Shown here: positions 57,744 through 60,314 of the stretch, in pieces
Numbering within the stretch: position 1 is the stretch's first letter
Layout: every line of letters begins with the position of its first letter
Assembly: GCF_022267535.1 (NCBI RefSeq)
Contig: NZ_JAHNZV010000013.1
Location: 1 to 64,000, forward strand
Source: Psychromonas antarctica
GTDB taxonomy: Bacteria; Pseudomonadota; Gammaproteobacteria; Enterobacterales; Psychromonadaceae
DNA length: 64,000 nt
Direction: 5' to 3'
The notes under the pieces: model-generated
Database searches by the model: none
Seen by the model: only the letters and a program-made list of their open reading frames with translations
Told to the model about the DNA's origin: nothing
Program-made: the position numbers and the translations under genes

Positions 57744-58640
57744 ATGAACAATAAAACGGTACTTATTAGTGGCTCTTCCGGCCTAATTGGCTCGGCATTG
57801 GTCCCTTTTTTAGAAAAAAAAGGATTCATTGTTGGGCGTCTACTACGCAAACCACAGGCACAACATCCCTATTGGGATATTAACAATAAATCATTGCAGC
57901 TAAAGGCATTTGCAAATCCAGATGTGGTCATTAACTTAGCCGGTGAAAGTATCGCCAGCGGACGCTGGACAAGGCGTAAGAAACAACAATTGATAGACAG
58001 TCGAATTTCATCAACAAAATTACTTGTTGACCACTTTCAAACGGTTTCTCCGCCGCCAAAACTATTTATCAACGCCTCGGCTATTGGATTTTATGGCGAT
58101 AAAGGTCAGCAACAAGTAACTGAAAATGCGCCTGTTGGAAAAGATTTCGTGAGTCAACTGGCCTGTCAGTGGGAGCAAGTGGCTGAAGGGATTAAATCTA
58201 CTGATACTCGCCTAGTAAATTTACGCACGGGTATTGTGATGAGTAAAGAAGGAGGTGCATTAGCCAAAATGCTGCCAGCCTTTAAACTCGGGCTGGGTGG
58301 CCGTATCGGCTCGGGGCAGCAAATAATGAGCTGGATTGATATCAATGATCTGCTTGAGGCAATTTTTTTTATTATTGAGACCCCTCAAATACAAGGTCCG
58401 GTGAATTTAGTATCACCCAATCCCATATCCAACCGACAATTTAGCCAGTTACTCGCAACACAACTGAAACGCCCTTGCTTACTGCCTCTCCCTGCTTTTT
58501 TAGTCAAATTATTATTTGCCCAAATGGGTAAAGAATTGTTACTTAGCAGTACAAATGTTTTTCCGAGGAAGTTAATCGATGCACAATTTAAATTTGAATA
58601 TGAGAAACTACAGCAGAGTTTAGCAAAACAGTTGTCTTAG
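57744..58640 (+). CDS. TIGR01777 family epimerase-like protein (YfcH type)
   Basis: A 298-residue extended short-chain dehydrogenase-like protein with an N-terminal VLISGSSGLIGSALVPFLEK, then VVINLAGESIASGRWTRRKK near residues 60-79, SAIGFYGDKGQQQVTENAPV near 112-131, and a C-terminal DUF1731 region. E. coli YfcH belongs here, and plant relatives act in cell division, but the bacterial function is unknown. A TCCGGAG ribosome binding site precedes the ATG. It is followed on the other strand by the CsrB-type RNA, whose terminator begins 31 bases after the stop codon. Confidence 0.88.
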   Translation: MNNKTVLISGSSGLIGSALVPFLEKKGFIVGRLLRKPQAQHPYWDINNKSLQLKAFANPDVVINLAGESIASGRWTRRKKQQLIDSRISSTKLLVDHFQTVSPPPKLFINASAIGFYGDKGQQQVTENAPVGKDFVSQLACQWEQVAEGIKSTDTRLVNLRTGIVMSKEGGALAKMLPAFKLGLGGRIGSGQQIMSWIDINDLLEAIFFIIETPQIQGPVNLVSPNPISNRQFSQLLATQLKRPCLLPLPAFLVKLLFAQMGKELLLSSTNVFPRKLIDAQFKFEYEKLQQSLAKQLS

Positions 58641-58670
58641 TATAGATTATAAAATCATTGAAAATCAGGC

Positions 58671-58696
58671 AAAGGAAAGGGTAGCCGAAGCTACCC
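58671..58696 (-). terminator. Terminator of csrB
   Basis: GGGTAGC/GCTACCC stem (58690-58696 and 58679-58685 on the minus strand) closed by a stable UUCG loop and followed by TTTCCTTT on the minus strand. Confidence 0.9.
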
Positions 58697-59107
58697 TAGG
58701 TTTAGTCATACCATCTAACTCCATGATGGTTTATGCGTCCTGCTAACATCCCTTTTGACTAAGGCCCATCTAGGCTTCCATTTCCCAATCCTTTGGGTAC
58801 ATCCTTTTTATATCCTTATTTGATAAACGGTCCTGTTCATCAACCTCTCCCATCCATTAGGAGGTGTCCATTTTTCGTCATCCTGACCTAATAATAACCA
58901 TCCTGATCATTATTAACCTTCAATCCTAGAAGGTGATCCCTACTATCCTTATATAAAGCAATCCTACTTTATAAGCTCTTATTCTAAGAGCGTCCTTGGT
59001 CTTCCTGACAAGATAAATAATCCTTATTTATCTTTAACAACATCCTGTTTCTTTTCTTAAATAGAAAATTGCTTGCTCTACATCCTGTAAAGCCGCCTTT
59101 CTTCTTG
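58671..59107 (-). ncRNA. csrB: CsrB-family small RNA (CsrA-sequestering)
   Basis: The minus strand of this gene-free stretch carries about 20 GGA triplets (about 15 as AGGA), many in loops of small hairpins: CTTTACA/TGTAGAG around GGA (59076-59092), AGATAAATAA/TTATTTATCT (59011-59033), TATAAAG/CTTTATA (58952-58973), ACCTTC/GAAGGT (58916-58934). This is the defining design of CsrB/CsrC/RsmZ RNAs, which bind many CsrA dimers and relieve CsrA control. It ends in a GGGTAGC-TTCG-GCTACCC terminator. Length, about 437 bases, is near that of CsrB. The 5' end is inferred from a TATTAT -10 at 59114-59119. No reading frame explains the pattern. The csrA gene is not here. Confidence 0.88.
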
Positions 59108-59113
59108 TTAAAG

Positions 59114-59119
59114 ATAATA
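59114..59119 (-). promoter_or_regulatory. Candidate -10 of csrB
   Basis: TATTAT on the minus strand; the start would be about 59107, 15 bases before the first GGA hairpin. The -35 (TCCTTT at about 59137-59142) is weak, as expected of an activator-dependent promoter. Confidence 0.5.
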
Positions 59120-59275
59120 CGCAGTTATAAAGCTCAAAAGGATATTAAAATAAAAACATTTTCATTCTCAACGAGATAAAAAACAACAAACCAATTAAAA
59201 ACAAAGACATACAATAACTTTTTATTTTAAATAGACGCAATAACCATGCTAATAATAACAATATCACCAGTCAGG

Positions 59276-59293
59276 AATGGTCGATCTCTTACA
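59276..59293 (-). promoter_or_regulatory. UvrY/GacA-like half-site upstream of csrB
   Basis: TGTAAGAGATC at 59293-59283 on the minus strand equals the left half of the UvrY/GacA box (TGTAAGAGATCTCTTACA); the right half is degenerate. It lies about 175-180 bases upstream of the inferred csrB start, close to the distance known for E. coli csrB. Confidence 0.5.
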
Positions 59294-59308
59294 AGCTAAA
59301 TTTAGCAC

Positions 59309-59333
59309 AAAAAAAACCCAGCTATTTGCTGGG
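59309..59333 (-). terminator. Rho-independent terminator of the porin gene
   Basis: CCCAGC and GCTGGG (59317-59322 and 59328-59333) form a stem with a 5-base loop, followed by eight T residues on the minus strand. It lies about 34 bases after the porin stop codon. Confidence 0.92.
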
Positions 59334-59366
59334 ATTTTCTTTGTAAATCAGAGTGTAAAGTGTTCT

Positions 59367-60314
59367 CTAGAAATCGTAACGCGCAGCAAAAGTTAAGGCA
59401 TCTTCATTACCTTCAGCTTGGTCTGCAACATATTCTCCGACAATACGGAATTGTTTGGTAAATTTGTATGCAGCACCAAAAGTAACTTGATCAACAGCAA
59501 GATCAGCTTGGCCATCGATATCTTTTTGTAAATAACGACCGACAACGGTTATCTTATCAAACTGGTAAGCAAGTGATGTTTCGATTGCAGTATGATCCGC
59601 ATCGTTTTCTTGATCCGTCAAATCAAAGACAACAGCAGCGGTTACATCTGCTATTTTATATTGAGCGCCCAATAAAGTAGTTGTCGTATCTACTTCGTTG
59701 TTTGTCTCAATACCATAAGTAGCACCGAGATCTAGACCAAAATTAGTAGCGTAAACCGCTCCCATACCAAAACCTGATTTTTTACCCGTTTCTTCTTGGT
59801 TATTCTCAAGTTGTACATGCGCACCGACGGTTAATGCCTTAATATATGTCCCTTGGAATTTTAATACATTTGATTCACGTCCGAACTCATTGAGTGCATC
59901 ATTTCCAGGCACATTTGAAACAGCCGAGTCAGTCCAATCAGCCACAAGTTCATCCGTAACATATTGACGACCAAAAGTAATCACCCCCCAATTTGCTTCT
60001 GTACCGACATAAGCCAGACGCGTTTTAGTCTTATCTTGCTTCTCTTTATCTGCAATAGCCCATTGTATTTCAAGTTCAGAAATACCCGTTAAGCTATCGC
60101 TTAATTGTGACTTCGTTTTGAACCCCAAGCGAAAATAAGCGTCGGAGTTACCGTTACTGACTTCATCCTCATTATTTTCCTGGTTCACATAACCAGCATA
60201 AACACGCCCTTTTAAATCTATCTGGTTAGTGTCATTTTTAAATACCGTTACACTCGCTTGCGCGGCAGAAACGAAACTGGTTAAAATTGTTACAGCTAAT
60301 AGTGTCTTTTTCAT
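59367..60314 (-). CDS. Outer membrane porin (OmpU-like)
   Basis: A 315-residue beta-barrel precursor. The signal peptide (residues 1-20, ending AQA) is followed by a 16-strand-type porin sequence: IDLKGRVYAGYVN at the first strand, repeated aromatic girdle patterns (VITFGRQYVTDELVADW, FAARYDF) and the C-terminal Phe that the BAM complex reads. It is of the Gram-negative porin family PF13609/OmpU. It passes small hydrophilic solutes through the outer membrane. ACGGAA precedes the ATG. It has a long leader with a structured region at 60462-60534, and CsrA/CsrB effects on it are possible but unproven. Confidence 0.9.
   Translation of the reverse strand: MKKTLLAVTILTSFVSAAQASVTVFKNDTNQIDLKGRVYAGYVNQENNEDEVSNGNSDAYFRLGFKTKSQLSDSLTGISELEIQWAIADKEKQDKTKTRLAYVGTEANWGVITFGRQYVTDELVADWTDSAVSNVPGNDALNEFGRESNVLKFQGTYIKALTVGAHVQLENNQEETGKKSGFGMGAVYATNFGLDLGATYGIETNNEVDTTTTLLGAQYKIADVTAAVVFDLTDQENDADHTAIETSLAYQFDKITVVGRYLQKDIDGQADLAVDQVTFGAAYKFTKQFRIVGEYVADQAEGNEDALTFAARYDF

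Follow-up and report, generated by a model that had tools for sequence, protein, structure and literature searches.

Within the 64,000-nt stretch of Psychromonas antarctica DNA analysed here (the window), the gene order is coaA, glpX, argD/astC, pabA, yfcH, csrB, porin, mnmE, yidC. The yfcH gene (57744-58640, plus strand) belongs to the TIGR01777 family, scoring 317.6 bits against a cut-off of 207.35, and is convergent with the sRNA gene. Upstream of csrB and on the same, minus strand lies a gene for a porin-like protein (59367-60314), whose scores with the PhoE, OmpF and OmpC models (56 to 48 bits) are all far under the cut-offs. 3′ of the porin gene and before csrB, the minus strand has a terminator-like hairpin (59317-59333) with 8 T behind it. 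The initial annotation described the sRNA region as otherwise gene-free, and no ORF of at least 60 aa is listed between 58641 and 59366. Here, we present evidence that the minus strand of 58671-59107, with an inferred transcript of ~437 nt, is very probably a csrB gene, of the kind known to bind up CsrA. RNAs of this kind are well known, and the P. antarctica copy is an additional CsrB member. Psychromonas are marine bacteria, most of them cold-living. CsrA-regulating sRNAs were reportedly predicted in a computational study in 2006, and a literature search confined to open-licence papers, represented in part by excerpts, turned up one paper that names both CsrB and Psychromonas but no description of a Psychromonas csrB.

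CsrB-type RNAs are expected to contain many GGA triplets, mostly in loops or otherwise unpaired, and to end in an intrinsic terminator, and this is what the sequence and its predicted fold contain. The minus strand of 58671-59107 holds 23 GGA, 15 AGGA and 11 AGGAT, the plus strand only 2 GGA. In 5000 dinucleotide shuffles the mean counts were 14.9, 5.9 and 1.6, and the observed numbers were reached in 5, 0 and 0 shuffles, respectively. The initial estimate of about 20 GGA compares with the 23 counted, and the excess over shuffled sequence that had been suggested as a check is present. The runner-up among 437-nt stretches, with both strands of the window considered, reaches 11 GGA. The RNA is predicted to fold stably (minimum free energy z = -6.3 versus 100 shuffles, for 58667-59107), with a mean unpaired probability of 0.78 at GGA versus 0.41 overall. 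In this predicted fold, 15 of the 23 GGA are unpaired over their full length, yet hairpin loops wholly contain no more than 10, so the earlier description of most triplets as sitting inside small stem-loops does not strictly hold. The UUCG-loop terminator noted earlier is present at the 3′ end: the terminator scan places an 8-bp stem, closed by UUCG and followed by TTTCCTTT, at 58678-58697 on the minus strand. Terminator-like sites number 3 in 58500-59500, versus 0.5 expected.

A covariance-model search, proposed at the outset as a test of the CsrB assignment, was positive by E-value, though under the curated cut-off. The Rfam CsrB model (RF00018) matches 58973-58667 with 38.9 bits (E = 4.4e-9), spanning the whole model (positions 1-356 of 356), one stretch of which is not aligned base by base. 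A second, partial match lies at 59050-58976 (20.1 bits, E = 0.0021). At Rfam gathering scores, there is no match in the whole 64,000-nt window; the gathering score of RF00018 is 71 bits, and csrB falls short of it. In a whole-genome search allowing E up to 10, the csrB locus accounts for both matches, and RF00018 finds no second csr sRNA elsewhere in the genome at that threshold. Among 14 control genomes, 8 give a match at E up to 10 and only E. coli at E up to 0.01. Plasmid records were also searched, with no match. When 60 relatives were scanned using stricter filters, the P. antarctica genome gave no match, while 19 of 24 Psychromonas genomes did, 11 of them above the gathering score. With a curated score cut-off, csrB can go unflagged in many members of a single genus, here in 13 of 24 genomes under these filters. 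Two Psychromonas copies that do pass the gathering score, L016 and L019, adjoin yfcH and pabA, as the window csrB does. Because the latter is below that score, its assignment to RF00018 rests on homology to these copies in the same place.

For a more sensitive comparison we used R1, a covariance model made from 20 Psychromonas csrB copies with the window sequence excluded. R1 matches the window at 58671-58837 with 158.9 bits (E = 5.8e-32, a rough value, as for all R1 E-values, because calibration was shortened). With at most 119 first-look candidates scored per genome, matches of at least 100 bits occur in 24 of 24 Psychromonas genomes, 49 in total, with 1 to 3 in each genome when those at contig ends are counted separately. 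The window csrB is the single strong match in the P. antarctica genome; a further, weak one lies at C233 (33 bits, E 6.5e-4). Covariation was examined in alignment A1, which holds 22 hand-picked copies, including that of the window, out of 34 extracted; the 12 omitted are near-duplicates and some long ones, and the copy at L038 is absent because extraction required an upstream box. A second alignment, A2, holds 20 of these 22, without the window copy and one from P. marina. The structure obtained from A1 by RNAalifold, minus four dropped long-range pairs (columns 42-45 with 569-572), comprises 12 helices made up of 60 pairs, with 97.1% of cells paired across the 22 copies. Changes on both sides are seen in 22 of the 60 pairs, compared with a shuffle mean of 9.0 (0 of 500 shuffles as high), while slid controls give 3 to 7, although the structure is favoured over the slid controls since it was derived from the same alignment, and the shuffles overstate the case since tandem paralogues and related species are among the copies. 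Helix 12 is the terminator stem, and all 22 aligned copies retain its pairs.

A UvrY/GacA box well upstream of the promoter is expected of CsrB-type genes, and a candidate motif is found here. In E. coli, as given in PMC4682653, an 18-nt UvrY box lies ~180 bp before the start of csrB and csrC; that of csrB, TGTGAGAGATCTCTTACA, is centred at -183/-182, and that of csrC, TGTGAGACATTGCCGATA, is less symmetric. The initial annotation reported a half-site about 180 bases upstream of the sRNA. A site is indeed there, on the minus strand at 59276-59293, its centre ~177 bp upstream of the inferred csrB start, but it is part of an 18-nt motif, TGTAAGAGATCGACCATT, rather than a half. Its left half, TGTRAGAGAT, is as in E. 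coli csrB and its right half is near that of csrC (PMC4682653); unlike the csrB box of E. coli, it has no palindromic right arm. Since the E. coli csrC box is itself less symmetric, we read the window motif, by resemblance, as a complete, asymmetric, csrC-like UvrY box. The exact palindromic GacA box, TGTAAGN6CTTACA, is absent, and the closest sequence in the 450 nt upstream departs from it by 4 mismatches. Between box and promoter there is no IHF-like site above chance level, the best match having 2 mismatches, equalled in 986 of 1000 shuffles.

The box is recurrent. The pattern TGTRAGAGATYGACYATT, which the window fits with 0 mismatches, has 43 sites at up to 1 mismatch in 22 of 24 Psychromonas genomes, versus 2 sites for the reversed control pattern, and the P. 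antarctica genome holds one site only. At 32 of 33 sites examined (out of the 43), a 350-nt stretch with at least 20 GGA follows within 750 nt. The exception (L133 2407; G022:C1:2957073) has at most 5 GGA in 350 nt within the 594 bases behind it, and perhaps marks a lost csrB copy or another target. The two genomes without the motif at up to 1 mismatch are G008, whose copies (L020) carry box variants such as TGTGAGACATTGACCATA, and G017, which agrees with the MAG locus L038 in coordinates and score and has no clear box. Boxes at 0 or 1 mismatch also precede csrB in other families of the order (L006, L011, L012, L013). A putative -10 element, TATTAT (59114-59119, minus strand), is placed by comparison, with a predicted start near 59107 and no clear -35. 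The plausible -10 of the initial annotation corresponds to this element, and the string GTANTAT or GTATTNT stands at its place in 31 of 34 extracted Psychromonas copies; the promoter scan, however, did not list it, and the promoter-like sites it found are no commoner than chance (3 versus 3.6).

The position of the gene is also shared. Among the best 80 of 112 yfcH loci, the six closest relatives of the window yfcH are from Psychromonas (57-73% identical), and csrB adjoins yfcH in four of the six (L034, L036, L037, L038). There is no csrB within the yfcH locus L035, and L033 is uninformative on this point because it ends 158 bases after yfcH. Another 17 Psychromonas csrB loci (within L009-L032) span at most ~1.5 kb either side of the gene; 8 of these have a yfcH match and 13 match one or more of pabA, yfcH, porin and mnmE, while L009, L025, L027 and L031 match none of the four. 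A porin gene lies between csrB and mnmE in L034, L036 and L037, its product 26-29% identical to the window porin. The window porin is only ~24-29% identical to the porin matches in related loci, compared with ~78-95% for the pabA and mnmE matches (some over short stretches), which suggests fast change or replacement of the porin. The initial annotation raised the possibility that neighbours such as the porin are CsrA targets. A special link between csrB and the porin is unsupported, because several csrB loci near mnmE have no porin match. By eye, two GGA occur within 58 bases before the porin start codon, one of them at the likely ribosome-binding site.

It could be asked whether the GGA-rich stretch is simply the tail of the porin mRNA, as the porin gene is directly upstream on the same strand. 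We give this almost no credence. The hairpin and 8 T at 59333-59317 intervene between the two, as do the box and the -10 string, both of which recur in Psychromonas, and at L038, where yfcH and mnmE flank csrB, there is no porin match. It is also conceivable that the window holds a decaying csrB copy that has lost transcription or CsrA binding. The RF00018 score of 38.9 bits is below that of many Psychromonas copies (up to 90.3), and a remnant-like match of 86 nt adjoins csrB in L034, so copies of the gene may decay in this genus. Yet the window csrB is the only strong match in its genome, at 158.9 bits with R1, and it retains 23 GGA, a box without mismatch and an intact terminator, making decay very improbable. 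A csrB gene in its own right, as first proposed, is the reading that accords with the RF00018 and R1 matches, the covariation, the recurrent promoter motif, a partly conserved gene order and a genome that also encodes csrA, uvrY and barA. Points that weigh against it are the RF00018 score under the gathering cut-off and the missed match under stricter filters, the box without a palindromic right arm, a -10 that the promoter scan passes over, a best CsrD match below cut-off and an IHF-like site no better than chance.

The protein partners expected of a CsrB-type RNA are indeed encoded by P. antarctica. There is one copy of csrA; UvrY, in an intact frame, reaches 393.2 bits (cut-off 280), and BarA, in a frame of 957 aa, 1231.8 bits (cut-off 890). 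No CsrD is found above cut-off in the genome, the best match to NF008281, which we take to be the CsrD model, having 198.9 bits against 663. By analogy, csrB RNA most likely acts by sequestering CsrA under the control of BarA/UvrY. As in E. coli and Shewanella, BarA/UvrY would control csrB, with UvrY binding followed by transcription. The RNA would then present CsrA with numerous sites in its loops and unpaired segments, several CsrA dimers would bind it, and CsrA would be drawn off its mRNA targets. In this way, csrB would complete the Csr circuit of Psychromonas on the RNA side.

E. coli CsrB and CsrC carry many GGA in loops and sequester CsrA. The window csrB is diverged from these, as its 38.9 bits to RF00018 attest, and the gene neighbourhood of the E. 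coli genes presumably differs from the yfcH-porin-mnmE setting. In Shewanella oneidensis, according to PMC3171408, CsrB1 and CsrB2 are ~420 nt long and contain numerous AGGA motifs, a UvrY box is predicted for them, and mutants of uvrY and barA show a more than 100-fold drop in their expression. The same paper describes two csrB genes with a transposase gene between them (PMC3171408), whereas the window has one strong copy, between yfcH and the porin. The Pf1 sRNA of Pseudoalteromonas fuliginea, a CsrB-family RNA of a polar marine host, has 21 GGA and a putative GacA box and is reported to bind CsrA (PMC9927453). Its 260 sequence matches are given there as all in Pseudoalteromonas (PMC9927453), and it is by description that we liken it to csrB.

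Copy number varies within the genus. In P. marina (L036 5954-7990), three tandem csrB copies are found, each with its own box and terminator. One may speculate that Psychromonas tunes CsrA titration by csrB dosage, such that arrays at an ancestral mnmE-yfcH site, driven by the asymmetric csrC-like UvrY box, expand and decay by species, and P. antarctica represents the one-copy end; we regard this proposal as rather doubtful. A recurrent asymmetric box combined with variable copy number offers a handle on UvrY recognition and csrB dosage. A second csrB subtype, represented by L025 and L132, is without the GGACACCTCC block, and its loci have no pabA, yfcH, porin or mnmE match; it is perhaps a CsrC-like paralogue. 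The 86-nt csrB-model match in L034 (6730-6815, 54.4 bits) lies between the porin and csrB and resembles what is left of a tandem copy. Short csrB-model matches of this sort are also present in G005 and G021.
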